DNA from: a virus
Reading direction: 5' to 3' (one strand)
IMG/VR virus record: IMGVR_UViG_3300028197_001229
Coordinates: 1-64,000 of that record
DNA: 64,000 bases
Part shown: in pieces, positions 2,202 to 46,195 of the stretch
Numbering within the stretch: the stretch's first letter is position 1
How the letters are laid out: each line of letters opens with the position of its first letter
The notes under the pieces: generated by a model
What the model saw: the letters and a program-made list of their open reading frames with translations, nothing else
The model's database searches: none
What the model was told of the DNA's origin: nothing
Program-made: the position numbers and the translations under genes

Positions 2202-2915
2202 ATGAGTGAAGAAGAAGAAGAAAATTTAGAAGACCTCTACAAAGAAGAGTCTGAAAGCTTGAAAGAAACTAACGACGAAGAACCCATACAGAAGGATCAA
2301 TCAGTCGATGATTTTATACAAGAAAACACACCTACAGCTGATAAGGAAGACACTCCTAAAGAAGATCCGATAGAGGTTAGTCGCGATAAAACCTTTGATG
2401 AAAATCCATCAAAGGTAGATGCTATCATGAGTGAAGTCTTGATCGACACTCAGAAGGTAGATATAACAGTAACGGATAGGCAGGGTTATTTAAAAGCAGT
2501 ACTTAATGATATGCCTGTGAAGTTAGACGTAGAATTGTGTGCTGGTCAAATAAAGTACAAGATTAGATCTAGGACTTCTTGGGAACAGACATGTCTATAT
2601 GCTGCACTACAAAAGGATCAGGAGGAAGAGATAGTAAAGGATCTAGCGTCTGTAGTTATACAGTTACAGAAATACGGTTGTGTACTTATGGTTGAATCTA
2701 TAAATGGCACCCTGTTTTCCAAAGAAACAATTCCGCAGGAAATGTCTGTAGAAGATGCAGTCGAAAGGCTCAGGACTTTACGACGGGAAAAAATTGAACC
2801 CATGAGTATGCCCAAGTGGGGACTTATGTTAAACGCACTTAGGTTATTTGAAAGTAAGCTAGCCAAGATGGGTACAGAGTGTCTTAACGAAAATTTTTGG
2901 GAACCCGCAGATTAA
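2202..2915 (+). CDS. Tail assembly chaperone, zero-frame product (gpG-like)
   Basis: 237 residues. The first ~70 residues are strongly acidic and low in complexity (MSEEEEENLEDLYKEE onward). The C-terminal ~150 residues form a compact domain with DVELCAGQIKYKIRSR and repeated amphipathic helices. No family is recognised from sequence alone. The call comes from position and architecture: it lies immediately before the tape measure gene and ends inside a canonical -1 slippery site leading into the next reading frame, the hallmark of lambda gpG/gpGT-type chaperones. The family coats the tape measure protein and recruits tube subunits during tail assembly. The start ATG follows the upstream stop by two bases, with no Shine-Dalgarno sequence. 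Confidence 0.7.
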   Translation: MSEEEEENLEDLYKEESESLKETNDEEPIQKDQSVDDFIQENTPTADKEDTPKEDPIEVSRDKTFDENPSKVDAIMSEVLIDTQKVDITVTDRQGYLKAVLNDMPVKLDVELCAGQIKYKIRSRTSWEQTCLYAALQKDQEEEIVKDLASVVIQLQKYGCVLMVESINGTLFSKETIPQEMSVEDAVERLRTLRREKIEPMSMPKWGLMLNALRLFESKLAKMGTECLNENFWEPAD

Positions 2916-2945
2916 GGCTATTCGTAGTAGCTTATTTGCGGGGTT
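2891..2945 (+). promoter_or_regulatory. Programmed -1 ribosomal frameshift signal
   Basis: The heptamer A AAT TTT at 2891-2897 is in the correct zero-frame phase (gaA AAT TTT) and fits X XXY YYZ. The zero frame stops at 2913-2915. The -1 frame is open only after the TAA at 2885-2887, so any shift must occur within 2888-2915, where the heptamer lies. Six bases downstream, CCCGCA (2904-2909) can pair with TGCGGG (2937-2942), giving a GC-rich stem; a CTA-TTCG-TAG mini-hairpin can form inside the loop. Slippery site, short spacer and stem together match the known gpG/gpGT arrangement. Confidence 0.85.
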
Positions 2946-3427
2946 TATTAAAACCATATTACGAAAACGGTAACCTCTCTATTATACGAGAGGAGCTTTT
3001 ACTTAAGGCGATATCAAGTGAATTTGATATGGAAGCTGCTAAACAAGTTCAAGCACTTGAAGTGGCTATGGCTCAGAACGTCAAAGATAAGTCGCAAATG
3101 TTCTCAAACCTATATGATAAGATAGTAGATTATAGGTTTGGTCTAGAATTTAGTCTGAATAAACAAAGATTAGAAGAAGAAGAGGAAATAGAGAGATTGA
3201 CCAATGACCCAGAAATTAATAAACTTATTCATACAGTTAATAAAATGGTGGAATCCGGAGAATGGGATGAGTCTACAAGACAAATGAATAAAGAAATAGA
3301 AAAAGATCAAAAAGAACTCGATAAACGGGAAGCGAATCCGTTTAAAGAGAACCCGAACCAAGATGGCTTGGTATGGCAGTGGGGATCTAGTGAGTCACAT
3401 CCCGGTCACCCTAACGACGAAGTTTAA
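2897..3427 (+). CDS. Tail assembly chaperone, -1 frame extension (gpT-like)
   Basis: 176 codons in the -1 frame relative to the preceding gene. The first codon that could act as a start is the TTG that overlaps the slippery site, so this is most likely not an independent gene but the extension made by frameshifting. The fusion would be 232 residues from the upstream frame plus 176 here, about 408 residues. The extension is highly charged and helical (EEEEIERLTNDPEINKLI, QMNKEIEKDQKELDKREA) and ends GSSESHPGHPNDEV. Known for the family: the T part binds tube protein while G binds the tape measure protein. It ends three bases before the tape measure ATG. Separate initiation at TTG 2897 cannot be excluded. 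Confidence 0.75.
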   Translation: MGTRRLRLFVVAYLRGLLKPYYENGNLSIIREELLLKAISSEFDMEAAKQVQALEVAMAQNVKDKSQMFSNLYDKIVDYRFGLEFSLNKQRLEEEEEIERLTNDPEINKLIHTVNKMVESGEWDESTRQMNKEIEKDQKELDKREANPFKENPNQDGLVWQWGSSESHPGHPNDEV

Positions 3428-3430
3428 GTT

Positions 3431-6400
3431 ATGGATAATCCCGTGGATAAAATGGTACAGCGTACAGCCTTGGATCAGCTGGGAGGAAAGGTACCCGGGG
3501 ACATGTCTGGTGGTGATGTTTTTTCCGGATTAACTCAAGTACTCATGGGTTTTATGAATGGGCAGTCCGGTAGTGGATCTTCTACCATGTCTTCATCTCA
3601 ATACTCAAATCAGCAAAGAGAGCAAGATTTTGTTAAAAGTGTAATGAACACGTCTAGTGGAGAAGATAGACGTATACCTTCTATGTTACAAGAGGCTGGA
3701 ACTGCTGTGACAGGAAGTAGAGCTGGTGGGGATGAGTGGGAGAATGCATTCAAACAGTTACCAGAACAAATAAAGTCGGCGATCTTAACAGCTTTCAATT
3801 CAAGCGAGCTGGGACAACTAATGGGTGGTGACAGTAGTCAGATGGCAATGGCTTCTATTGGTATGTTAAAGGGTACCAATGAATTCACCACACCAGGCGG
3901 TTTACAGTTAGGTGGTCAATTTAGTAGTAAACGGAAAGCTTTGGCTGGTGATATAAATAAAGAGTTAATGTCTGAATTTGTAGATCCCGACACTGGACTA
4001 CCTATTATGGACAAGACTCAAGGACAGAGTTTTGAGAATATAGGAAAATTTGCACAGACCATGGCCTCTGAGGGAGGGTTGAGTCCTAAGGAGCTTATAA
4101 AAAGCATAGATAGTGAAAGCGGAGCTGTAGAGTTGGATAAGTCTGCATTAGATGGTGCCCAGACAAATATAAAAAAAGGAATGGAGTTGTTCCGAAACTT
4201 ATCTGATGTATTCGGTAGTAATGATTTTAATGAGCTCATGAGTCAGGCTCAGCGTTTAGGAGGGCTAAACATGAGTGACCCTTCATCTATTGGGAAAACT
4301 TTATCTGCCGTTAGAAATGCTAGAGGTGTAGCTCGTTCAGTAGGTCTCGATGAACGTAAGGCTTTGGGGGATCTAGGTTTAGCAAATGACACGATGGTGC
4401 AAATGGGTGTAGACAGGCGGACAGCTGCAGCGTTTAACTTAAGTACCTTCGCAGGGGCTGCCACACAAGGCCAATCAAATACTCAAAACATTAGCCCGTT
4501 TGACTCAGGGTTTAGAAAAAGATTGGGTTCCAGTGAAATGATTCAACAAGCTGGCATGAGTAACACTCAAATGCTAGCTGAAGCTGAAGCTAATCCACAT
4601 GGTGAAGTAGCTATGGCTCAGGCAGCTAGAATATTTTTCTCAAAACCGGGTAGGGAGGATCAGTTCTCTCCTGAGTTAATTAAAAAGAAAAATGATGCTC
4701 TGAATGAAAAAGATCCTGCTAAAAGAGAGCAAAAGCTCAGAGAGGTTATGTCTAATATTAAGACTGAGTCTGGTATAGATGTACTAAGTCAAGTAAAGGA
4801 ACAGGGTTTAAGTAACTTACGGGAAACAGCAGACTCTGATACACTTGACGCTATGGCTGAGGATAATTTTCAGATCCTACAAAGTCGTAATAAAAACAGG
4901 TTCAGAGAGAACTACATGCGTCATGAATTCAACACTGGGAGAATGCGTGCAGAGTTGGGCGAGGGTCATGAGTTAATAGATGATGTAAATGAATTTGAAG
5001 ATCTACTTACAAACGCACCGGATACGGTTGGTTTGGAGAAGATGTCACACTTACTTGCAATATCCGAAGGTAGGGATGAAGAGATTACATTTTACGATAG
5101 CGAGTCAAAGTCTTACATAACTAAAAGTGCAAAAGAGATGACTCCGGATGAGCGGAGAAAATCTATAAACAGTCAACTAGTGGCAGAAGGTGTAGATGTA
5201 GGAGAAGCAAAAACTTTAACGGACTCTATAATGAAAGCTCCGCAAACACTTGATTCTGTTGAAAAAGAAACTGGTATGCGGCTGAACAATGCTTCTAAAG
5301 GAGCTGCTAACCTTAATGAAAACTTAGGTTCAGAGATGTCAGCTTTTAGGTTGTCGAAGTCAGCCCGCGATAGGGGTGCTTTAGCGGGCGAGCAAGGGGC
5401 TAAGGAGTTACGTGGAGGGCCTGCCATGACGGACCCCTTACAGAATGCTTTGTTTGGATTTCTAGGACAAAATATTCAAGCTGAAAAAGATCAGGCTTTT
5501 CGGGATCTAGAGGAAGCTGGAGATTTTGCAACTGACTCTATAGATATAAATTCACTATCCACTACAGCTACTCAAAAAGAATTGTTTAGTGATATATCAG
5601 ACACCACAGATCCAGAAAAACTTAAAGAAATAAGTAAGAGAAAAAATACAAAAACTGCAATGAACGATTTAGCTCAGAGGATTATACCTGAGCTTCAAGA
5701 CTTTAAGGTAAAAAATAAAGATGGAGAAGATGTAGGTTTAGCCGAGCAAATACTAGCTGATCAGGGATTTGAAGACCCGGCTGCGTTATTAGAGAAGTAC
5801 AGACTAGATATGGCTGAGGCTATTGAGTTAGAATCTCAAGGCAAAGATGAAGAGGCAGCAGCTTTGCGTGAGAAGAACCTAGCTGTAACTGGGGCTTTGT
5901 TAGGGGAATTGGGTGGTAGTGGTGGTAGTGCGCCCATGGGTGTGTTAAAGACTTTAAAAGATGCAGGTCATGCTACTAATGTAAGGAAGGAAACAAGTGA
6001 GGACAGGAAGAAAGAGATAGCAGAACTAGAAGAAAAGATAGGAATGGATTCTCTGGACGAACTTAATGAAGGTAAGGATAAGCTAGACAGTTTAGACGAA
6101 TTGGACGAACAGCGAAAACTTGTAGAAAATTTAAGAGCTGAGTCAGAAGGTAAAATTGATGAAGGTAAGCTAGGTGAAGCTGATATGCTACGTGAATCGG
6201 CTAACAATTTACTTACAGATGAAGATAAAGCTTTGTTGGCAGGAGAAGAACCTCAAGACGTTAAGATGGCCCGGCTCCGGCTTGAAAAGGGTAATGCACA
6301 GGACGGTGATGAGGAACTTATAGCTGAACATGATAAGAAGAAAGCAGCTGCCGAAGCTAAGATGGCACAAAGAGACAAAGATCTTGCTGCTGCTGACGAA

Positions 6401-7177
6401 CTTGATGCAGCAGGTGGTCGTGAATCAAAAGATAAATTGTCAGCGGAAGAAAAAGAACTAGCTGATATGGAAGCAGAATTTGGAGGTATTGATAGAGAAG
6501 AGTTACAGGAAAGTGTTGACGCATTAGAAGGTGGTATTGATCAAGATGCTGTAGATAGAAGAGAAGAGCTGTTAGCTCAAGGAGAAGATGATAGATTTTT
6601 ACTAGACGTTGCAGAAGGTGGTGCTGAAGATGTCGAGAAGAGAAGAGCTTTTAATAGGAATATAGATGTAAAGAAAGGCAAGAGATTACTAGATTTGAAA
6701 AAAGATCTAGGCATAGATGATATAGATACAACTAAGTTAGAAGAAGGTTTAGAAAGTGGAGAAGAAGATAACGTTACTGGTATAGACAAATTGTCTGATG
6801 AACTGATTACGGGAGATGCTTTGGGGCAAAAAGGAGAAGAGGATGCAGACTTGATAAGTAGGTTGGCTAGTGGTGGCGAAGATGCAGAGGAAGTAATGGG
6901 CGGTTTAAAGCAGTTCGGAATGGGAGCTAAAGATGTACGTAAAGACCTACAAGAAGCAGACAGCATGGTCAGGGAAGAGATGAAGAATACTGAAGACAAG
7001 GAGAGTGCAGGGTTTAAAGCTTTAGAGAACAGACTAAAAGAGATTGCAGAAGCTCAGAAAAATGTAAATGCAAGTTTTACATCTGACGATACGCCTGGAC
7101 TTTTAGTAGAGTTAATTGATAAGATGAGTACTCTCATAGGAGGTGGTACAACACTTCCTGTAACGCTAAAAAATTAA
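3431..7177 (+). CDS. Tail tape measure protein
   Basis: 1248 residues, the longest protein in the tail module, immediately after the chaperone pair. The N-terminal ~130 residues are Gly/Ser/Gln/Met-rich. The remainder is mostly helical, and the C-terminal third (from about residue 840) is very charged coiled coil (EEKIGMDSLDELNEGKDKL; KDLAAADELDAAGG). No peptidase or lysozyme motif and no obvious long membrane segment was seen. The tape measure family sets tail length. At roughly 1.5 angstrom per residue the tail would be near 185 nm, a rule-of-thumb figure. The call depends on position and composition rather than a sequence motif. Several minus-strand open frames across it are shadows of its biased codons. 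Confidence 0.7.
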   Translation: MDNPVDKMVQRTALDQLGGKVPGDMSGGDVFSGLTQVLMGFMNGQSGSGSSTMSSSQYSNQQREQDFVKSVMNTSSGEDRRIPSMLQEAGTAVTGSRAGGDEWENAFKQLPEQIKSAILTAFNSSELGQLMGGDSSQMAMASIGMLKGTNEFTTPGGLQLGGQFSSKRKALAGDINKELMSEFVDPDTGLPIMDKTQGQSFENIGKFAQTMASEGGLSPKELIKSIDSESGAVELDKSALDGAQTNIKKGMELFRNLSDVFGSNDFNELMSQAQRLGGLNMSDPSSIGKTLSAVRNARGVARSVGLDERKALGDLGLANDTMVQMGVDRRTAAAFNLSTFAGAATQGQSNTQNISPFDSGFRKRLGSSEMIQQAGMSNTQMLAEAEANPHGEVAMAQAARIFFSKPGREDQFSPELIKKKNDALNEKDPAKREQKLREVMSNIKTESGIDVLSQVKEQGLSNLRETADSDTLDAMAEDNFQILQSRNKNRFRENYMRHEFNTGRMRAELGEGHELIDDVNEFEDLLTNAPDTVGLEKMSHLLAISEGRDEEITFYDSESKSYITKSAKEMTPDERRKSINSQLVAEGVDVGEAKTLTDSIMKAPQTLDSVEKETGMRLNNASKGAANLNENLGSEMSAFRLSKSARDRGALAGEQGAKELRGGPAMTDPLQNALFGFLGQNIQAEKDQAFRDLEEAGDFATDSIDINSLSTTATQKELFSDISDTTDPEKLKEISKRKNTKTAMNDLAQRIIPELQDFKVKNKDGEDVGLAEQILADQGFEDPAALLEKYRLDMAEAIELESQGKDEEAAALREKNLAVTGALLGELGGSGGSAPMGVLKTLKDAGHATNVRKETSEDRKKEIAELEEKIGMDSLDELNEGKDKLDSLDELDEQRKLVENLRAESEGKIDEGKLGEADMLRESANNLLTDEDKALLAGEEPQDVKMARLRLEKGNAQDGDEELIAEHDKKKAAAEAKMAQRDKDLAAADELDAAGGRESKDKLSAEEKELADMEAEFGGIDREELQESVDALEGGIDQDAVDRREELLAQGEDDRFLLDVAEGGAEDVEKRRAFNRNIDVKKGKRLLDLKKDLGIDDIDTTKLEEGLESGEEDNVTGIDKLSDELITGDALGQKGEEDADLISRLASGGEDAEEVMGGLKQFGMGAKDVRKDLQEADSMVREEMKNTEDKESAGFKALENRLKEIAEAQKNVNASFTSDDTPGLLVELIDKMSTLIGGGTTLPVTLKN

Positions 7178-8433: not shown

Positions 8434-10074
8434 ATGGCTAATGATAATGTAGAAGTACGTGAAGTAGACGTAGTTGTTACCGGTAGTGGTATGGAAAATT
8501 TTGCCATTACAGAACTTACGTTTACAAATGCAGTAAACTCATTTCCGTCGTGTGTTGTTCGTGGTGTAAGGGCAACTAGTACAGAAGGTGGTTTGATGTC
8601 TGCAGACGTAGGTGTAAAGTCAGTATCATTAAAAGATATATGTGATGGACTTTCTAAGGATCAGAACGATATGTTTAAAGATGGTAATGAATTAGACATA
8701 TTAGTTAAAGACGACGGGCAGGGTAACAGTATGACAATGACCGGGGTAAGTAGCGCACCCGGACTTAAAATAAACGCAGGTAAAATTGCTGAACAAAGAG
8801 CTGTTGTACATCCAGATCAGAAAATTTCAGGAATAAATTTAGGAATCTATGCACTAAAGGATGAGACTGGTAACTCCTCTGAGATACCTATGACTACTGT
8901 TAACCCTAAGGATAACGACATTGTGTCTTCGCATATTGACGCAATTGTGGACTGGATGATTTCTGGACCATCTACTGAGACAAAGGGTCATTCATTGGGG
9001 ATAAACAAACATTTAAAAGATACGCATGATAATAATAAAACTTTGTATGGTATCCTTTCTAAGATACTAAAAGGTTCATCTGATACAAACTTAGGTTGGG
9101 CAGATCGTTCTAAAGAGATACTTGCTGGTAACCAACAGTACTACTCGTGGTTTCATAATTTATTTAAAAGTAGTACCAGCTACTTAGGCACTGAGTTATC
9201 TACAATAAACCCATCATTTTTATTCACACATTGTTGTGGTTTTGATAACGTAGAAGGTGATAGTAGAATATTTCATTCACAAGTTAATTGTGGGTCGGGG
9301 AAATATTACAGTGAAGAATCTGTAGATCTAATAAGTTTACAATATGGTATGGGTGGGTTGGGAGAGCTCCCACTTGGGCAGATGATAATAACTACTAATA
9401 TAATTGGTAAGTATGGTGACAAAGGTCCTAAGGGGCATGGTCAGGAAACCGTAGCGGGTGCTATATCAAAAGGTATGCCTCTTAATGGTAACTGGCCTGA
9501 AAAAAAGAGCCCAAAGCATGGGGAGACAAAAACTGTAATGATGCCCCGTTGGATGGAACATCAATATGCAGCTGAAGATTCACCAAAGATACCAAAAGGA
9601 TTAGGTGGAAACCCAGGTAATCGTAACGCCAAAAAAGATGCTGAAGATTCTAAGAAAAAGATAAAAGATAAATTTGCAGATAAACGTATATCTAGCACTG
9701 AAGAGTTTTTGAGTTTGTGGGCTTCAAAGCATTACGTACAACAAACATTAGCAAACCACACGTGTTCTTTACAAATACCGTTGGATATTAGTTGGGGTTG
9801 TGGTGGGGGTGGTTTGCCTGGCGGTACATTAGGCGGTGGTGGTAAGCCTGTAGGCTCAGTGTATAGTATATCAGCAAACAACTATAAAGAAGGTGGGCAG
9901 GAAATTCATTTGTTTGAAGGCTACTTACACTCAGTAACCCACGAGATGTCCGTAGGAGAGGCTCAAGGTAGAGCTATAACACACTTGGTATTTACACATG
10001 TGAAGGGCGTGGCTTGGAGCGGTTATGAACCGCCATTTGGCTGCGGACCGTGGGTAGAGCCTACTACAACTTAA
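8434..10074 (+). CDS. Putative baseplate hub protein (gp27/gpD-like)
   Basis: 546 residues. The C-terminal ~90 residues (PVGSVYSISANNYKEG, then EGYLHSVTHEMSVGEAQGR and LVFTHVKG) resemble the last beta domain of hub proteins related to T4 gp27 and P2 gpD, where a turn of the form 'G.v.sv.H......G.a.t.l.fthv' is usual. A glycine-rich segment (CGGGGLPGGTLGGGGK) precedes it. Residues about 385-410 are charged and lysine-rich. In contractile tails the hub carries the spike and closes the tail tube. The N-terminal half is not recognised. Hub identity is an inference from the C-terminal pattern and gene order. Confidence 0.5.
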   Translation: MANDNVEVREVDVVVTGSGMENFAITELTFTNAVNSFPSCVVRGVRATSTEGGLMSADVGVKSVSLKDICDGLSKDQNDMFKDGNELDILVKDDGQGNSMTMTGVSSAPGLKINAGKIAEQRAVVHPDQKISGINLGIYALKDETGNSSEIPMTTVNPKDNDIVSSHIDAIVDWMISGPSTETKGHSLGINKHLKDTHDNNKTLYGILSKILKGSSDTNLGWADRSKEILAGNQQYYSWFHNLFKSSTSYLGTELSTINPSFLFTHCCGFDNVEGDSRIFHSQVNCGSGKYYSEESVDLISLQYGMGGLGELPLGQMIITTNIIGKYGDKGPKGHGQETVAGAISKGMPLNGNWPEKKSPKHGETKTVMMPRWMEHQYAAEDSPKIPKGLGGNPGNRNAKKDAEDSKKKIKDKFADKRISSTEEFLSLWASKHYVQQTLANHTCSLQIPLDISWGCGGGGLPGGTLGGGGKPVGSVYSISANNYKEGGQEIHLFEGYLHSVTHEMSVGEAQGRAITHLVFTHVKGVAWSGYEPPFGCGPWVEPTTT

Positions 10075-10080
10075 GTTTTT

Positions 10081-13000
10081 ATGCCAAGGGAAGAAAGCAC
10101 AGCTGATGACTTTCCAGATAAAGGAGACTTCTTAACGCCTTCGGCTAAAAGAAAAAAACCTGACTGTGATAGGAAAACTCTAATACCAGATCCTTGTGAT
10201 TTAAGAGTAGATAGAAGAAAAAAAACAGACGGTAACAATGATTGTGCCGTAGCACCAATTGTACAGGTTTGTCCTGAAGATCTTGGAAAGTTTAAAATTC
10301 CAGAATTACCAGTAGTACCAACTGTGTTCATGCCTAAAAGGTCTGAACCCATAACACTAGCTCCTTTAAAAGTTATACCAGCACCTGAGCTTGAATGTAA
10401 CGACTCATTTACACTTAGTTGCCCATCAGAGGGATGGTTAGACGCAGATTGGGCTAGAGAAAATTTAGGCGAGTCATCAGGATCTAGTGGCGAAGGTTAC
10501 GAAATAATAGAAGATCAATTTGGGGGTGTTAGTAACTTAAAAGAACTTAATCTTGATTACGATCAACTTCCAGATGACCCAGATATATTTATTGCTCCAG
10601 AAGATGATGAAAAAGAATTTGGACGACAAGTAATTGTAACATCTTGTTCGTTTGTTGCGGCTACAAAAAAAGAAGCAAACAAGAAAGCTAGGATAAATGC
10701 CATACGGTCATTAGACTGTCAGTTCTGTAATCCAGAACTAGTAGTTAACTGTTTAGACCACCAAGAGATGGCATTGGGTATAGGTGGTGAGGGTTACACT
10801 GCTGAAAACACGTATATAGAGATTAAAGGAGATGGTAACGGAGCTGCTGCCGAAGTAGTAATAGAAGAAGGAACAGGGCGAGTTACAGGAATAAACGTAA
10901 CATCTGGTGGTGACAAGTATACCGCTATACTTGCTGAAATAATTGGTGACGGTATTGGTGCAGCTATAGGTGGTGCAACATTAGAAGACGAAGATGGTTG
11001 TGGTGGCCCTTTACTATCCATGACTCTCGGACAGGTTTTTCCTGACCCAGCTTACAACCCATTGGTAGACCCTCCTATATACAGTACACAAAAAGGTGCT
11101 TGCGTACCCAAGTGTACAACAACTTCACGGGAAAGTGTAGCAGTTGCTAGGGATGAAGCACTAGCTGAAGCATTGCGAAGTTTAGATTGCTCATACCAAA
11201 GCCCGGAACTACATAAAGACTGTCCTGAGGGTGAAGTACCTAACACTGGATTTGACATGCCAATGGGTGCGTTTAAGACACCTATAACAAGGGGTACGCA
11301 ACTAGAGGTTACGGAAAGTTCTCAAGAAATAATAGATGCACTAACATGTATACAAATCCCCTGCCCGGATGGATTCCCAGAAGCGATAGTAGATATACAG
11401 ATTAACGATCCTAATGAATCTTGCGATGATAATGGTGGAGGGCAAAATGGTTCTTGGTTTGATGCAAGCTTTGATGAGGCTAATTGTGAGTACAAACTAG
11501 AGGGTGTATTAGAGCTTCCAGAAATACCGTGTGCTTGTGGATTTGAAACCACGACGTCTATCAACGGCATGACCGTTATTAGTGGTAGTAACGTAGAAAC
11601 AAATTCAAATTCAGAGTGCGTTGGTTCTTTAGATATAGGTATAGATGTTATAGGTAACACCGAATGTGAGCTCATCTTTAACCTAGAAACATGTGAATTT
11701 GATCTGGCTATTGACCTGCCCGATCTAAAGATGAAATGTGAAGAGATATCCATGGGGGTATCTGGTGGAGAATTTAATGCAACTGTAAACAAATCCGATA
11801 CATTTGGTGTAGACGTTACAGCAAACGGCAATGGTTGTGTTAGTGGTGACGGTTGTTCTCTTGACCTAGAACTTCCTAGTTACGAACTTACTATAAACGT
11901 ACCTGATATTAATGTACCTTGTCCTGATGGTTTCAATACAGAAACAGAGATAAGTATAGAAGGTGGTGAAATTTGTATAGGTGGTGAGTGTGACACAGCA
12001 AGTGGAGCTTTTGATTTTGATTTCGACATAAACACTTGTCAGTTCACAGGAGTTATGGAGCTGAATATACCCAGCATCAATATTGGTTGTGGAGAGTTTG
12101 AAACTTCAGTTGCTATATCGGGTGGAAATTTTACAGGGCCCGAGCCAGAAGAACCTGGTGGTGGTGGTGATAGTGACTGTTCTGCATCGTTAGACATAAC
12201 ACCTACAATTGAGACATCTGGAAATGCCTCGGCTGACTTTACTATATCTAACTGTGGATTTGAGTTAGATATAACCCTACCAGATATAAGTATGGAGGTT
12301 CCGTGTCAGACTATAACAGCATCAGCATCAGGTGGTACTGTTGATGCATCTATAGTGACAGGAGGTTCTGCATTTGGGGTTAGCGTAACTACAACGCCTG
12401 AAGAGCCGTGTGTTACTGGGGATGGATGCGGTATTAGTATAGACATACCTAGTACTTCTATAGAAATAACTGTACCGGATATAGACATACCTGAAATACC
12501 TTGTCCCGAAGGATTTACAGCAATTTCAAGTATAAACATAGCAGGTGGTGTAATTGAAGTTACAGAAGATGGAAACACTACAACAGTTGGTGGAAATCCT
12601 GAAGCAAATGTAAATCTAACTATTGACATGAATACATGTCAAATAATTCAAACGATGTCGCTAACTCTGCCTAACGCAGAAATAGAAATCCCATCAGTTG
12701 AATGTGCTAATGGTTACTCAGCTTCTGGATCGCTAGGAGTTTCAGGTGGTGACGTAACAGCAGGTAACAACGTAACTGTAAGTAACAGCACCAACGCAAG
12801 TGGTAACGCAACACTTACATCATCAAATTGCGGTATCGAACTTAGTGGAGATATAGTATTACCATCGTATCAAATAGACGTTGATATACCAGCTATGACC
12901 TGCGCAGATGGTTATTCAGCTTCTGGTAATATTGACGTTAGTGGTGGTAGTGTTTCTGGAGGAAATAACGTCACAATCTCCGGTGGTAATGGTGGTGCTA

Positions 13001-13800
13001 GTAGTAACGTATCATTTTCACAGAGTCAGTGCGCAATGGAAATTTCTGGTTCAATTATTCTACCAGACCTTACCATAGACGTTGATTTACCCAACATACC
13101 ATGTGCAAACGGATACTCAGTATCTGGAAGCCCATCTGTTACTGGTGGCAGTATTTCGGGAGGAAATAACGTAACAGTCTCCGGGGGTAACAGTGGAGCT
13201 AGCGGTAACTTATCACTCAGTGGTTCGGGGTGTAATATAACACTAGATGGTGAAATTACATTACCTGACGTTAGCATAGATGTTGATCTGCCAGCTTGTG
13301 CAGCTAATGGTTACACATTTTCAGGATCAGCAACAGTCTCTGGGGGAGCTGTATCTGGTGGTGATGGTATAACAGTGAGTGGTGGGAGTAGTGGAGCTAG
13401 TGGTAATGTAACAATAACTGAAAGTGGTTGTGGTGTAACTTTAGATGGTGCAATTACATTACCTGACATTACAATTACAGCATCTGCTGCAACATGTCCA
13501 AATGGAGTTTCAGGAGAAGGTACGGCAACAGTCTCTGGGGGAGCTATATCTGGTGGTGAGGGTATAACTGTTTCTGGCGGAAATAGTGGAGCTAGTGGTA
13601 ATGTAACTTTGTCCGGATCTGGTTGTAACCTATCACTCAGTGGTGAGATAAGTCTTCCAGATGTAACCATTACGGCTGAAGCAATAGATTGTGCAAATGT
13701 TACTGGGGCTATGTGTGAAGATGATTACACCGAAACTAGTCTTGACGTTTGTGACTCTAGCGGCAATACCACATCCATAACTGTATTAGTAAAAACGTAA
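10081..13800 (+). CDS. Large cysteine-containing beta-repeat virion protein (fibre/baseplate appendage candidate)
   Basis: 1239 residues. After a basic, Cys-containing N-terminus there are two segments of the type SCSFVAATKKEANKKARI...LDC (about residues 188-216 and 346-370). Between them is a glycine-rich beta segment (GDGNGAAAEVV, then VTSGGDKYT) like domains common in tail fibres. From about residue 420 to the end it is an array of beta repeats, degenerate at first and regular from residue 875 on, each starting with Cys-x-x-GY and containing SGGxxSGGxxVTVSGG and a second Cys. Regular Cys spacing suggests one disulfide or a buried Cys pair per repeat. Likely an elongated, surface-exposed virion appendage. 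No known adhesin family is recognised. It starts six bases after the hub gene stop. Confidence 0.5.
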   Translation: MPREESTADDFPDKGDFLTPSAKRKKPDCDRKTLIPDPCDLRVDRRKKTDGNNDCAVAPIVQVCPEDLGKFKIPELPVVPTVFMPKRSEPITLAPLKVIPAPELECNDSFTLSCPSEGWLDADWARENLGESSGSSGEGYEIIEDQFGGVSNLKELNLDYDQLPDDPDIFIAPEDDEKEFGRQVIVTSCSFVAATKKEANKKARINAIRSLDCQFCNPELVVNCLDHQEMALGIGGEGYTAENTYIEIKGDGNGAAAEVVIEEGTGRVTGINVTSGGDKYTAILAEIIGDGIGAAIGGATLEDEDGCGGPLLSMTLGQVFPDPAYNPLVDPPIYSTQKGACVPKCTTTSRESVAVARDEALAEALRSLDCSYQSPELHKDCPEGEVPNTGFDMPMGAFKTPITRGTQLEVTESSQEIIDALTCIQIPCPDGFPEAIVDIQINDPNESCDDNGGGQNGSWFDASFDEANCEYKLEGVLELPEIPCACGFETTTSINGMTVISGSNVETNSNSECVGSLDIGIDVIGNTECELIFNLETCEFDLAIDLPDLKMKCEEISMGVSGGEFNATVNKSDTFGVDVTANGNGCVSGDGCSLDLELPSYELTINVPDINVPCPDGFNTETEISIEGGEICIGGECDTASGAFDFDFDINTCQFTGVMELNIPSINIGCGEFETSVAISGGNFTGPEPEEPGGGGDSDCSASLDITPTIETSGNASADFTISNCGFELDITLPDISMEVPCQTITASASGGTVDASIVTGGSAFGVSVTTTPEEPCVTGDGCGISIDIPSTSIEITVPDIDIPEIPCPEGFTAISSINIAGGVIEVTEDGNTTTVGGNPEANVNLTIDMNTCQIIQTMSLTLPNAEIEIPSVECANGYSASGSLGVSGGDVTAGNNVTVSNSTNASGNATLTSSNCGIELSGDIVLPSYQIDVDIPAMTCADGYSASGNIDVSGGSVSGGNNVTISGGNGGASSNVSFSQSQCAMEISGSIILPDLTIDVDLPNIPCANGYSVSGSPSVTGGSISGGNNVTVSGGNSGASGNLSLSGSGCNITLDGEITLPDVSIDVDLPACAANGYTFSGSATVSGGAVSGGDGITVSGGSSGASGNVTITESGCGVTLDGAITLPDITITASAATCPNGVSGEGTATVSGGAISGGEGITVSGGNSGASGNVTLSGSGCNLSLSGEISLPDVTITAEAIDCANVTGAMCEDDYTETSLDVCDSSGNTTSITVLVKT
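12703..13692 (+). repeat. Tandem ~198-bp (65-67 residue) coding repeats
   Basis: Five regular repeat units, each beginning at a cysteine codon: 12703, 12901, 13102, 13297 and 13495, with a sixth cysteine at 13690. Spacings are 66, 67, 65, 66 and 65 codons. Units share C-x-(D/N)-GY, SGG-x-x-SGG, VSGGNSGASGN and LPDxxIDVDLP patterns. Two units (from 13297 and 13495) are nearly identical over long DNA stretches, which points to recent duplication or gene conversion. More degenerate copies extend upstream to about 11340. Confidence 0.85.
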
Positions 13801-15785: not shown

Positions 15786-16487
15786 ATGAAAAATAGTACA
15801 ATAGTAGAAGACGGTTATAATAACTACGTAATAGATCCCACACCTGAAAACCTTTCAGTTGTAGTTAACAGTTTAAAACCAACCATTGATTATCAGCTAG
15901 CTTCGTTAGGAGCTAATTCGGATCCTGTAATGAAAAATAAAGCTATGCTTTACACAGCTCGGGCTGTAAAAGACTTTGACCCCGAAAGGAGTAGTCTTCC
16001 TACTTTTGTATCTTCACAACTTAGACGATTGTCACGTGACAGGAGAAACTCACTAAGCCCAGTGCGAGTTCCAGAACGTGTTCAATTAGAAGCATTTGGA
16101 TTACACAGGTCTGAGTTAGAGTATATAGATAAACATCAGAGGGAGCCAACTGTAGCAGAGCTTGCAGATTTTTCTAATATGTCTGTTAAGAAAGTTACAG
16201 ATGTAAGGAACGCTATGGTAGCGGTACCAACCGAAGAAGCTTTCGGAGAGCAAATGGAGAACGCAGTTCCAGACTACCTAAGTGAAGCCACAGACTATAT
16301 TTACGCGGACTCTGATTATATCGATAGGAAGATAATAGAACTAAAGACAGGGTACGGTGGTACTCAGACTATGCTAAAGGCTACAGAAATTGCAACTAAG
16401 CTTAACGTAAGTCCTTCGCAAATCAGTAGAAGATCTATGAGATTATCTAAAAAAATAAATGAAATTAAAGATGCTTTAGAATCATGA
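15786..16487 (+). CDS. Sigma-70-family-like transcription factor
   Basis: 233 residues. FDPERSSLPTFVSSQLRRL (about 64-82) resembles sigma region 2 (a 'yDp.rg..F.tya...ir' pattern). VPERVQLEAFGL to REPTVAELADFSNMSVKKV (about 95-137) resembles region 3, and ATEIATKLNVSPSQISRRSMRL (about 200-222) resembles the region 4 helix-turn-helix. At this length it fits a compact phage or alternative sigma factor that would redirect host RNA polymerase, probably to late genes. It sits between two structural gene blocks. The start codon is one base downstream of a perfect dyad, suggesting tight control. A virion-assembly protein with chance similarity is possible but less likely. Confidence 0.65.
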   Translation: MKNSTIVEDGYNNYVIDPTPENLSVVVNSLKPTIDYQLASLGANSDPVMKNKAMLYTARAVKDFDPERSSLPTFVSSQLRRLSRDRRNSLSPVRVPERVQLEAFGLHRSELEYIDKHQREPTVAELADFSNMSVKKVTDVRNAMVAVPTEEAFGEQMENAVPDYLSEATDYIYADSDYIDRKIIELKTGYGGTQTMLKATEIATKLNVSPSQISRRSMRLSKKINEIKDALES

Positions 16488-29501: not shown

Positions 29502-31352
29502 TCACATACTAAATGAAGTACCAACGTTTCCTATAATCTCTTCTCGGGCAATGAGGTTTCCAGCATTGGATGTCATTGACAATTTCATTCTGTTTAGTAG
29601 CGCAGTATCTTCAACTAGATTTTCTTGTAAAAATACACGCCCAGTAATGTAAGCAAAGTTTAAAGCGTGTAAGAAGTCATCAGACCGAGCGCCATGCTTC
29701 CTATACAGAAACCCGGTACCACCGCCTGAGGTCTCCTGTGGTATACGTATTAGGTTTAGACATTCGGAAAGATAATCACCCATACGCTCCCAGTGTAACG
29801 ATCGTATTCTTAAATTCTTCATACCGTAATATAATGCTGTAATACTTTCCGTACGATTAAGAGAAAACATATTAAACATAGTTTTACTCTCTTGTATAAC
29901 TTGTGAATTAGGTCCGGAATACTTATATATAAAATGATTTTCAGGCGCCATCTGTTCCCTCAATAACATATTGTAGGCATAACCAACACCGTAATCAGAC
30001 CCTAGTGCCATTCCGTGAAACTCGTTGTGTCTAGCAAGTATATCAGAAGCTATCGCTCTATAAGACATGCCCTCGTAACGCTTACCATGTATCAAATCAA
30101 ATGTACCATCCCTGTTTAAACCTATAATTGCGTGAGTAGTATATGAAAGTTTTGTTTTGTTAGACACATCATAGTCCGAGCCGCCCCAGTCGCATCCTGA
30201 AAATACTGCATAGTACTCACCGCTTTGAGCCTTAGCTAAGTAAGGTGCGTTAGATTCTCCTAAAATACACATTCTACGTAAATCGCCTTCTGTGATTTCA
30301 CGCTCACCTTCTTGTGTTGGTATTCCTAAATTTTCCTGCAAAAATTTTCTAGGATCTTGGTGTAGTTTTTTTCTATATATTTCGTCCCACCGTATGTGGT
30401 TATTAACAACTGCAGGTACAATAATCTGAGGAATGTGAAAACCGAATCTACCAATCTTAAACTTATCTTCGTCTAAATGTACGAATCTACCTTTAGTAAC
30501 ATCTAGCCTAGCACCACACTTACAACAACAAACTCCCTTGGGTTGTATCATATCCAAAACGCCATCTTCGGGTGTAGGAACATTTTCGTGATTACAACTA
30601 TCACATTTCATAATCCATACGCCTTGAGAAGAATCTGCGTACTTACCTTCTAACGCAGTATCTGTGGTCAATGACGTACCTGCATATATAGTAACAGGCA
30701 TATGCGACGCTCGTTGGATTTCGTCAATTTCAGGTTCAAAACTTGGGTCAAAGTTTTGATACTCATCGTATAGCAGTTCATCGGTAGACATACCACGTGC
30801 ACTAGAAACCTGCGTATCAACATTAATTAGCTGTATACTAGACCCGTTAGGATACTCCTTATACTGTAGGTTCTGCCTATATTTGTGACTGGTAGTCGGG
30901 AAACGAAATGCAGTTTCCAAATCTCGCAACCTATTAGCATATGTCTTAACTTGATCAGCCTTAGGTGCTATGTACAAACTTTTTAATTTGGGTATCATGT
31001 GCGCGTTCAACCTTTGTCTCGCTGCAAAAGTTGTAGACTTTGCTATTTGTCTACTACCACGAATAACCATAAACCCACCAATGTTTATAGGTAATAAATG
31101 ATAGGCAAACGGAAAGTCCCTAAGACTCATTGGCTTGTTTTTAGGATACTGCGGGTAATAGTACGGAAGTAAAAACGCAGGATTGTATTTGCAAAACCTA
31201 AGTATCTCTCTCAGTATTTCCTGAGCGAGTTGAGTGTGGTATCCACTACTTTCAGCTTTATGAGTTAATACTTGTAACTCATTTGTCAATTTAGTAAGCT
31301 TGTCTCTAAATTGACCATTAGTCCTAACAGTATATTCTAAATCAAAATACAT
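29502..31352 (-). CDS. terL: Terminase large subunit
   Basis: 616 residues; the DNA-packaging motor ATPase and headful/site nuclease. VIRGSRQIAKSTTF (about 96-109) is a Walker A-type loop with Ala in place of the final Gly, as in many terminases; DELLYDEYQ (191-199) gives Walker B with D196/E197; an SAT-like TIYAGTSL follows. A zinc-binding insert has CDSC (250-253) and CCCKC (275-279). The RNase H-like nuclease is marked by GCDWGGSD (387-393), GSDYGVGY (451-458) and ARSDDFLHA (555-563). It is a single minus-strand gene, nine bases from a divergent + gene. The small subunit is not identified. Confidence 0.9.
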   Translation of the reverse strand: MYFDLEYTVRTNGQFRDKLTKLTNELQVLTHKAESSGYHTQLAQEILREILRFCKYNPAFLLPYYYPQYPKNKPMSLRDFPFAYHLLPINIGGFMVIRGSRQIAKSTTFAARQRLNAHMIPKLKSLYIAPKADQVKTYANRLRDLETAFRFPTTSHKYRQNLQYKEYPNGSSIQLINVDTQVSSARGMSTDELLYDEYQNFDPSFEPEIDEIQRASHMPVTIYAGTSLTTDTALEGKYADSSQGVWIMKCDSCNHENVPTPEDGVLDMIQPKGVCCCKCGARLDVTKGRFVHLDEDKFKIGRFGFHIPQIIVPAVVNNHIRWDEIYRKKLHQDPRKFLQENLGIPTQEGEREITEGDLRRMCILGESNAPYLAKAQSGEYYAVFSGCDWGGSDYDVSNKTKLSYTTHAIIGLNRDGTFDLIHGKRYEGMSYRAIASDILARHNEFHGMALGSDYGVGYAYNMLLREQMAPENHFIYKYSGPNSQVIQESKTMFNMFSLNRTESITALYYGMKNLRIRSLHWERMGDYLSECLNLIRIPQETSGGGTGFLYRKHGARSDDFLHALNFAYITGRVFLQENLVEDTALLNRMKLSMTSNAGNLIAREEIIGNVGTSFSM

Positions 31353-42801: not shown

Positions 42802-43022
42802 ATAAATTGGAAGACGAAATAGTTAAATTGAGCTACACAGCTAACATGTTGCAATCAATAATCGATAGATTAAATAAATGCTCTATAAACCTAGATTCGG
42901 ATCCCGATCTTTCCTTAAGACTAAAAAGTATTCTTTATTACCAAGGTTGTGGTGATTACAATCGTACTTTGTTTGAAACTATTGATCTAGATAAAAATAT
43001 TACAAAAAAGTGTCAGAAATAA
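42798..43022 (+). CDS. Small unknown protein between primase and polymerase
   Basis: 74 residues, a helical charged N-terminus (LEDEIVKLSYTANMLQSIID) then a short Cys-containing tail. ATGA coupling to the primase; its end overlaps the GTG start of the polymerase by 13 bases. No family recognised. Size and coupling suggest a small replisome accessory, or simply a linker gene. Confidence 0.45.
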   Translation: MNKLEDEIVKLSYTANMLQSIIDRLNKCSINLDSDPDLSLRLKSILYYQGCGDYNRTLFETIDLDKNITKKCQK

Positions 43023-46000
43023 AACGTCAGCTGGCAAAAGGCGAGTACCCTGAGTGGTGCAAGTCTAGCCCGCCAAATTCGTTAAATAAAAATAGAACTA
43101 TAGATGGTGTACTTCACTTTGCAGGTGTGGGTAAAAAACCTGCAGATGTTATGTTTGTTGCCCCATGTGTATTATTCGAGGAGGCTAATGATCGGACATC
43201 TCCGGCAAGACTATTAAAAGGTCCAGCATCTAATCTGTTTTTACGGAATCTAAAAAGAGTTGGTTTTAACACCGACGAAATATATTATACAACATTATGT
43301 AAATACACACTTCCAATGGGTCGTAACATGCGCCCAAAGATGGAAGATTTACGTTGGAGTCAAACAATAATTGAAAAAGAGATTGAAGAAGTATCTCCTA
43401 AAATAATTGTTTGCTTGGGGAAACAAGTTTTTGATTTCTTTGTTGATTTCAAAGCTACATTTAAAGACGTACACGGTGGGTTTTTCCACAGTACTTATTA
43501 TGACTGTTTGGTTTATGTTACGGATCAGCTTACTACTTCTTTCCTTAAGCCTGAATACATAAGTCGTTCCATAACCGATTTAGCTTGTGTAAAGCGACAT
43601 CTAGACGATGTAGCTGGAGTAGGTATACCCACACACCCAATAGACTATAAAACAGTCTCTACACGTACTGAGTTAGTTAAACTGTTTTCTGATATTGAAG
43701 CTCTTAAGCCCTCTGTACTAAGTGTAGACTGTGAGTGGGCAGGTGATACCTATATTAGTGGTACACTAAGATCTATTCAGCTATGTTGGGCACCGGGTAA
43801 AGCAGCTTACATAATGTTCAGGGACCAAGCCGGTTTATGGGTTTGGGATAAGCCGCAACCAGACATCTATAAACAAGTTGGTAACTTTCTTAACAAAGGT
43901 TATAAGTTTATAGGTCATAACTTGTGTGCTGACTTTATGTGGATGCATCATTGTTTAGGTGTTGATACTTATCAGAAATGTGCGTTTGACACTATGTATG
44001 CTGAGTTCTTGTTAGATGAGTATGCAGACTTAAAGTTAGAACGTTTATCACTTAAGTACACGGACCTCGGTCGTTACGACACAGAGTTATTCTTAACTAA
44101 GAAAAAATTAAAAATAACATCTGATGAAGGTTATGGTCGTATACCAGACGACGTACTTATACCTTACGCTTGTAAGGATGTGGATGTTGTAATGAGGGCT
44201 TATCCCATTTTACTACAAAAGCTTTATGCGGAAAAATTAAATTCATATTATTTCGATATAAACTTACCATATGTTGCCGACTCGTTTTTTGAAATGGCTC
44301 TTGCCGGGTTACCTATAAATAGATCTTATCTAGATGTAATGCGCTCGGTGTTCACAAATAATGAAACTCTGCTACTGCTCGAGCTTAGGATGAGTCTTAA
44401 AGAAGAAGCTAATCTCTTTCTAGCAGAAAAGCTCTACAAAGCATTCGGCCAAGCTGGTTACACTCTGTTTAGTGAATTGGTTCAACTAGACAATCGTAGA
44501 TTTGAACTTAGAGAACAACTGTATACTTACCCAGAGTTAGATACAACATATGTTCCTTGGGATTCTGCTAAATATTCTTCTGCAAAAATTATTGCGATGT
44601 ATTCTGAACCACTTGAAATAAAAGAAAATTTATCTTCAAGTGAAAAATCTGAATGTATTAAAGAACTAACAGATGTACATAATAAATGTTTAACTAAACT
44701 TAAAAGCCTAGTAAATCCGGAATCGTTTCCTGAATTTCTACCTTTGTTTGAGCATTGGTGGGACGCAAATGAGTTTAAAATAAGAAGTGATGCTCATAAA
44801 CGACGTTGGTTATTTTCTGTAAAAAAGTTTGAACCTGTAAAGACTACTAAGAAAGATGGTGTCCAAATGCCCTGGGAGTCTGTTTTGAAGTTGGATAAAG
44901 CTAGACAATTAGAGCATTCACCATCTACTGATAAGGAAACTATACAAATACTATCTGAGAAATGTATTTTAGTTTCTCGGGTCTTGGAGTTAAACTCTGT
45001 AGGCAACATTGTGAAGATGTTTCTTAAAGGTCCAGATGCTAATGGTAAAGAACAAGGTCTACATAAATGGATACAATCTGATGGTAGGCTTCACTGTAAT
45101 TTTGCTACAACAGAAACTGGTCGTCCTCGTACTTGGAATCCTAACGTATTGAACTACCCAAAAGCTATTACACGTCCGATCGAAGCAGCTTTCAAGCGGT
45201 TAGGTCAGGACAAACCTTACAGCTTACGATCATGTGTAGAGGCTCCAGAAGGTTGGTGTCTTGTTGACGCTGATTTGGAAACTGCAGAGGTGCTTGGATT
45301 AGCTTATATATCTGGGGATGATGAGATGATAGATGTCTGTTCTTCCGGAGATAAGAACTTCGTACAGATAAACTCGGATAAAGCAGAAGAATATTCCATA
45401 CCGTGGATTCGCTTTAAAGGAATTGATTGTGCCAGGTTAGAAAATATAGCCGATCACGACGATTGCTTGATACTTGATAACTCTGGTGAGTACATACGAC
45501 CGCTTAGGGATATGCACTGGGAGATGGCCGAGACAATGCACAGTAAATCTAGAGAAGAACTAGATGCGGATATAGATAGGCTTGCTGGTAAGATAGGTAT
45601 GTTTTCTATACCATATGGTGCGTCACCTAAGTTACTCGAAAGAACCATTGAGAGTATCACAGGTATAAAGCCTGATCCGGATATTGGTGAAAAGTTAATA
45701 GATGCTTATGAAACTAAGTTTCCTGTAGCTGCAGCTTTTCTGAAAGCACAGGAAGCTTGCGTAGAGGAGCCCGGTTACTATAGATCGATATCAGGTAGGG
45801 TTCGTCATTTTCATACACATGGGTTATCTACAGAAGGTTTATCGGAACGAGCCCGAAAGTCTCTAATGGCTCCACTAGCTAGGGAAGCTAGGAACTATCC
45901 TATGCAAGAGATTGTTGCTGCTACTATGGCTAGAGCTGTTAATTCTTTAGTTGCTGAGTTTAAAGCACGCGGTATGAGTGCTAGACCTATGATACTACTA

Positions 46001-46195
46001 CACGACGCATTGACTGTACTTAGTCCTATAGAAGAAAGATGGGAAGTCCGAAAACTTTTGCAGAAATGTATGAGTGACGGTACAACCTGGGATGTTAATA
46101 GTAAAACACTTCAGTTTGCTATAGATGTTGACTTTTCATTTAGGTGGGGTATGAAACCATCTAAAGAAGAATCATTATTACTAAACACACAATAG
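43010..46195 (+). CDS. DNA polymerase, family A, with N-terminal UDG-like domain and 3'-5' exonuclease
   Basis: 1061 residues from GTG 43010; the next ATG (43150) would cut into the first domain. Residues ~35-195 resemble the uracil-DNA-glycosylase superfamily: GPASNLFLRNLKRVGF (71-86), YYTTLCKYTLP, EVSPKIIVCLGKQV (127-140); the usual motif A GEAPG and a final HPS are not evident, so activity is doubtful. The exonuclease has SVDCEWAGD (D240, E242), FIGHNLCADF and a YACKDVD motif III. Polymerase motif A VDADLETAEV (D753), motif B R857...K861 then MFSIPYG (F865 at the sugar-discrimination position), motif C LLHDALTV (H998, D999). Fused UDG-exo-pol proteins are known in some phages. Confidence 0.85.
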   Translation: MSEIKRQLAKGEYPEWCKSSPPNSLNKNRTIDGVLHFAGVGKKPADVMFVAPCVLFEEANDRTSPARLLKGPASNLFLRNLKRVGFNTDEIYYTTLCKYTLPMGRNMRPKMEDLRWSQTIIEKEIEEVSPKIIVCLGKQVFDFFVDFKATFKDVHGGFFHSTYYDCLVYVTDQLTTSFLKPEYISRSITDLACVKRHLDDVAGVGIPTHPIDYKTVSTRTELVKLFSDIEALKPSVLSVDCEWAGDTYISGTLRSIQLCWAPGKAAYIMFRDQAGLWVWDKPQPDIYKQVGNFLNKGYKFIGHNLCADFMWMHHCLGVDTYQKCAFDTMYAEFLLDEYADLKLERLSLKYTDLGRYDTELFLTKKKLKITSDEGYGRIPDDVLIPYACKDVDVVMRAYPILLQKLYAEKLNSYYFDINLPYVADSFFEMALAGLPINRSYLDVMRSVFTNNETLLLLELRMSLKEEANLFLAEKLYKAFGQAGYTLFSELVQLDNRRFELREQLYTYPELDTTYVPWDSAKYSSAKIIAMYSEPLEIKENLSSSEKSECIKELTDVHNKCLTKLKSLVNPESFPEFLPLFEHWWDANEFKIRSDAHKRRWLFSVKKFEPVKTTKKDGVQMPWESVLKLDKARQLEHSPSTDKETIQILSEKCILVSRVLELNSVGNIVKMFLKGPDANGKEQGLHKWIQSDGRLHCNFATTETGRPRTWNPNVLNYPKAITRPIEAAFKRLGQDKPYSLRSCVEAPEGWCLVDADLETAEVLGLAYISGDDEMIDVCSSGDKNFVQINSDKAEEYSIPWIRFKGIDCARLENIADHDDCLILDNSGEYIRPLRDMHWEMAETMHSKSREELDADIDRLAGKIGMFSIPYGASPKLLERTIESITGIKPDPDIGEKLIDAYETKFPVAAAFLKAQEACVEEPGYYRSISGRVRHFHTHGLSTEGLSERARKSLMAPLAREARNYPMQEIVAATMARAVNSLVAEFKARGMSARPMILLHDALTVLSPIEERWEVRKLLQKCMSDGTTWDVNSKTLQFAIDVDFSFRWGMKPSKEESLLLNTQ

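Follow-up and report, generated by a model that had tools for sequence, protein, structure and literature searches.

A probable -1 frameshift site conserved in a divergent pair of putative phage tail assembly chaperone genes

In phage lambda, gpG and gpGT are encoded by two overlapping open reading frames (ORFs) directly upstream of the tape measure gene; a -1 slip shortly before the first ORF ends connects them (PMC5009743). Slips of this type occur at a low level and are conserved across long-tailed phages except T4 (PMC5009743). The locus described here was found in a stretch of 64,000 nucleotides (the window) that belongs to a virus record of 85,105 bases (IMGVR_UViG_3300028197_001229). 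Like lambda gpG/gpGT, its two ORFs, A and B, overlap in the -1 frame and directly precede a tape measure candidate. Unlike the lambda genes, the pair shows no detectable resemblance in sequence to known chaperone families, the slippery heptamer of its lineage is A_AAT_TTY or G_GAT_TTT, and the gene upstream is not a major tail protein, which is the usual neighbour of such pairs but does not define them: it is spike-like in the window (ORF 10-2199, with a weak DUF2345/VgrG-type match) and a terminase in Salmonella phage Arash and Vibrio phage D69. These two phages carry a related pair (gp2/gp3 and VPHD69_0002/0003, respectively) with the same -1 overlap and a very large ORF next to it, in both cases annotated as two separate hypothetical proteins. 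Their phased A_AAT_TTC is directly followed by a stop codon, unlike the site in the window. The published Arash paper makes no mention of a frameshift or a chaperone.

ORF A (positions 2202-2915, plus strand) encodes a gpG-like zero-frame chaperone candidate of 237 amino acids, with an acidic, disordered N-terminus and folded C-terminal two thirds. The -1 frame is closed by a TAA at 2885-2887 and open immediately thereafter from 2888 to 3427 on the same strand (ORF B), where it encodes the gpT-like C-terminal 176 amino acids of a predicted A-B fusion. Between this stop and the zero-frame stop of A (TAA, 2913-2915) lies the slippery heptamer A_AAT_TTT (AAATTTT, 2891-2897, plus strand), which is in phase with A (GAA AAT TTT TGG) and ends 15 nt 5' of the stop. 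A shift at this site would yield a protein of 232 + 176 = 408 amino acids. The limits of the overlap, the phase of the heptamer and the approximate length of the fusion had all been given correctly by an earlier sequence-only reading of the window. By itself the heptamer is weak evidence, because phased XXXYYYZ motifs occur at a frequency of 0.0082 per codon in the genes of the window and about 6% of overlaps of this length hold one by chance; it rises above chance because it is kept in every recognised relative. Another phased motif, TTTAAAC at 2142-2148 near the end of the spike gene, lies where the frame of ORF A is open upstream of its ATG and is probably a chance occurrence.

When viral contigs were scanned with single proteins (A, B and the product of 8434-10074), nothing matched, and a tblastn search of A against annotated phages was equally negative. 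The terminase (29502-31352) weakly matches its counterparts in Arash and D69, and an alignment of the three terminases led to 24 viral contigs. Subsequent whole-record searches exposed both proteins in G001 and G003, with identities of 38% and 31% for A and 41% and 42% for B, respectively. Scanning with B and A then brought in L034, L035 and L038; G004 and G015 came from a profile search, and L056 and L058 from a final scan. Of the two patterns behind this final scan, one contains K-F-L and biases it toward the heptamer; all other relatives were reached via the terminase or other parts of A and B. The terminase matches L012, L015, L020, L022 and L023 lack a recognisable A or B and count neither for nor against the site. 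Genome contigs were also scanned, without yielding a relative.

Conservation is the decisive evidence for the putative slip site. A phased slippery heptamer is present at the same place in 21 of the 21 other genomes or contigs with a recognised pair, down to 11-19% protein identity, and B is in the -1 frame of A in all of them; including the window this set comprises 22 genomes or contigs, some of which are near-identical copies. The heptamer reads A_AAT_TTT in the window, G004, L021, L034, L035, L038 and L058, G_GAT_TTT in G001, G003 and G015, and A_AAT_TTC in Arash, D69, L013, L014, L016-L019, L024, L026, L027 and L056. With the codon usage of each locus, the joint probability of the required synonymous bases in 12 divergent representatives is about 3e-10, a figure that ignores shared ancestry and serves as an illustration rather than a formal test. 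In six relatives (D69, L021, L024, L026, L027 and L058), the site is pinned without any assumption about the motif, because the stops of the -1 and zero frames confine the shift to 13 nt that include the heptamer. The conserved residues of B start at the shift, with K/G-F-L followed by LRGLLKP or LGSPRDV. Conservation in related genomes had been proposed as a check of the heptamer, and it was lost in no relative that retains the gene pair. The same comparison bears on the reading of the open -1 frame as a sequencing error or a broken gene, in which A and B are truly one ORF. One indel could create such an overlap, but the same arrangement at the same codon recurs in genomes assembled independently from separate environments, two isolates among them. 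This reading is thereby refuted, with a negligible residual probability.

The heptamers A_AAT_TTT and G_GAT_TTT have counterparts outside phages: pea enation mosaic virus shifts at GGAUUUU, and two umbraviruses, groundnut rosette virus among them, shift at AAAUUUU (PMC5009743, PMC4737148, PMC13098196). In G001 and G003, G_GAT_TTT is even followed by TGG, as at the pea enation mosaic virus site (GGAUUUU, UGG). The umbravirus sites are found in plant RNA viruses and act on eukaryotic ribosomes, unlike the phage pair, and the likeness is one of convergence on slippery letters and not of kinship. Among the openly accessible papers searched, none was found to describe a G_GAT_TTT or AAATTT site in the tail chaperone genes of phages.

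All 43 scanned large ORFs of the window start with ATG, and only 8 of the 43 have a Shine-Dalgarno-like motif upstream. Translation may therefore mostly start without such a motif, and starts of this kind may point to a host such as a member of the Bacteroidota. For the same reason, the absent Shine-Dalgarno sequence at 2897 says little about the alternative that B is an independent gene, re-initiating from TTG 2897 or another internal start, with the heptamer being incidental. The TTG is indeed there, an ATG is located 6-15 codons into B in many relatives, and the annotators of Arash and D69 chose such internal starts for B (gp3, L002:2134-2538, and VPHD69_0003, L004:2039-2395). However, TTG 2897 exists only because a T and a G come after the last T of the heptamer, and the corresponding codon is CTA or TTA in the Arash-type relatives; this start, named by the sequence-only reading as one that would speak against a frameshift, is thus not conserved. 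The positions of ATG codons within B differ among relatives, no start is common to all, and the window, G003 and G004 have no ATG in the first 25 codons. Moreover, residues upstream of the annotated internal starts are conserved and the heptamer is retained at synonymous sites. Since the starts of B are not conserved and the 43 scanned genes of the window all begin with ATG, independent initiation is very unlikely. As the frame is conserved from the shift site onward, the annotations of Arash gp3 and D69 VPHD69_0003 are probably truncated.

Frameshifting would be assisted by a candidate stimulatory hairpin (2904-2942, plus strand), separated from the heptamer by a spacer of 6 nt (2898-2903, plus strand). 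Its 17 pairs form a 9-bp outer stem (2904-2912/2934-2942) and an 8-bp inner stem (2915-2922/2926-2933). When 2898-2945 was folded, the energy was -20.9 kcal/mol (z -4.6) and none of 200 dinucleotide shuffles folded as well; none of 300 random 50-nt stretches from the window reached the same stability. A CCCGCA/TGCGGG stem six bases 3' of the heptamer had been recognised earlier and is present, but it was under-described, as it forms part of this larger hairpin. In most of seven near relatives, the 5' arm of a hairpin begins about 5-7 nt 3' of the heptamer and the 3' arm lies over the conserved L-R-G codons. A conserved position rather than a conserved structure is claimed here, because the exact pairs vary and covariation is not above controls: a pair-by-pair analysis found 71% of cells paired, with 142 of 500 shuffles as good, and RNAalifold found no shared stem. 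A search of Rfam revealed nothing relevant. The main structure of Arash-type relatives lies farther away than usual, beginning about 20 nt downstream, so that stimulation may differ there. The stem is GC-rich within an AT-rich region and followed by some T, as might be seen in a transcription terminator located between A and B. Yet a terminator scan does not call this hairpin, its sole hit falls within B (2974-2993) and one hit is what chance would give, and B and the next gene need transcription through the hairpin unless they have their own promoter. A terminator in place of a frameshift stimulator is therefore highly improbable.

Directly after B, the ORF at 3431-7177 (plus strand) encodes 1248 amino acids and is homologous to the gene at the same place in G001 and G003. 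The gene after B encodes 824-1249 amino acids in the relatives and is homologous among the near relatives, the window included; all relatives checked have a long ORF after B, which is homologous within each clade. The product of 3431-7177 has no family match, and its position, size and homology mark it as a tape measure protein candidate that behaves as the sequence-only reading had supposed. The -1 overlap, the conserved phased heptamer and the position before this candidate lend support to the proposed gpG/gpGT-like arrangement. The positional counterpart in Arash, Gp4, is listed with 1952 spectra among the most abundant proteins in virion mass spectrometry (PMC10585845 Table 2). Gp2 and Gp3 are both absent from the 116 proteins that the authors identified in the Arash virion (PMC10585845), which would fit a pair that takes part in assembly only; this is negative evidence, and further small proteins, Gp5 and Gp9 for instance, are likewise missing from the table (PMC10585845).

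Neither A nor B matches a Pfam or PHROG family. The earlier statement that the proteins belong to no recognised family thus holds for their sequences, but the predicted fold of A weakly matches annotated chaperones. The AlphaFold2 model of A (pLDDT 75, pTM 0.64) was compared with BFVD by Foldseek, and the Rhodococcus phage Finch tail assembly chaperone ranked second (E 1.6e-3, probability 1.00, TM-score <0.5). Seven further named tail assembly chaperones appeared in the top 50 at weaker E values, all TM-scores to named chaperones were below 0.5, and only the top match, an unnamed phage protein, passed an E value of 0.001. A fold search of A in the PDB gave no significant match. B is predicted to be helical, and a fold search in viral structures revealed nothing useful for it. 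It is conceivable that the pair is frameshifted without being a tail chaperone, and acts for example as a baseplate-hub or other assembly factor: it has no sequence family, the upstream gene is spike-like, and the evidence for a chaperone role consists of its position, weak fold matches and the lack of its Arash counterparts in the virion. However, annotated tail assembly chaperones are enriched among the fold matches of A, and the gene directly after the pair encodes a large protein of variable length, which in Arash is part of the virion. A different role is thus improbable, if the least so of the alternatives considered here.

Further observations concern the tail region and the remainder of the window. 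A protein of 1239 amino acids with repeated Gly/Ser/Val-rich and Cys-bearing segments is encoded right after the baseplate genes (10081-13800). A sigma-factor-like ORF (15786-16487) lies in the tail/baseplate region; the sigma factor gene of Arash, gp10, is similarly placed, and its protein was found in virions. The DNA polymerase A encoded at 43010-46195 combines an N-terminal uracil-DNA glycosylase-superfamily domain with a 3'-5' exonuclease domain in one ORF.

The best explanation, to which a probability of about 90% is assigned, is that A and B encode tail assembly chaperones of a contractile-tailed phage that are produced in unequal amounts via programmed -1 ribosomal frameshifting. The majority of ribosomes would terminate A at TAA 2913. 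A minority would be held up by the hairpin while AAT occupies the P site and TTT the A site, slip by -1 onto AAA and TTT and read on into B, giving rise to the fusion of 408 residues. If the pair works as lambda gpG/gpGT do, A would coat the tape measure protein encoded at 3431-7177 and the B part of the fusion would recruit tail-tube subunits. The slip itself and the chaperone roles are what we infer from the overlap, the conserved phased site, the hairpin and the finding that relatives carry homologues of A, B and the gene after them; the slip rate, the product ratio and the binding partners are taken from lambda.

It is well supported that this is the known lambda G/GT device, here in a divergent lineage formed by Arash, Vibrio phage D69 and uncultured phages. 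The chaperones and the probable tape measure protein are thereby located in a mostly uncultured group of phages in which sequence families fail, and the annotation is corrected for at least two isolated phages. Somewhat favoured, at a clearly lower confidence than the frameshift itself, is the view that these phages share an unnamed chaperone family in which the slip site alternates between the canonical A_AAU_UUY and the non-canonical G_GAU_UUU while its position stays fixed. If true, this switch at a fixed site would provide a natural series of how the ribosomes of various bacterial hosts tolerate a P-site mismatch.
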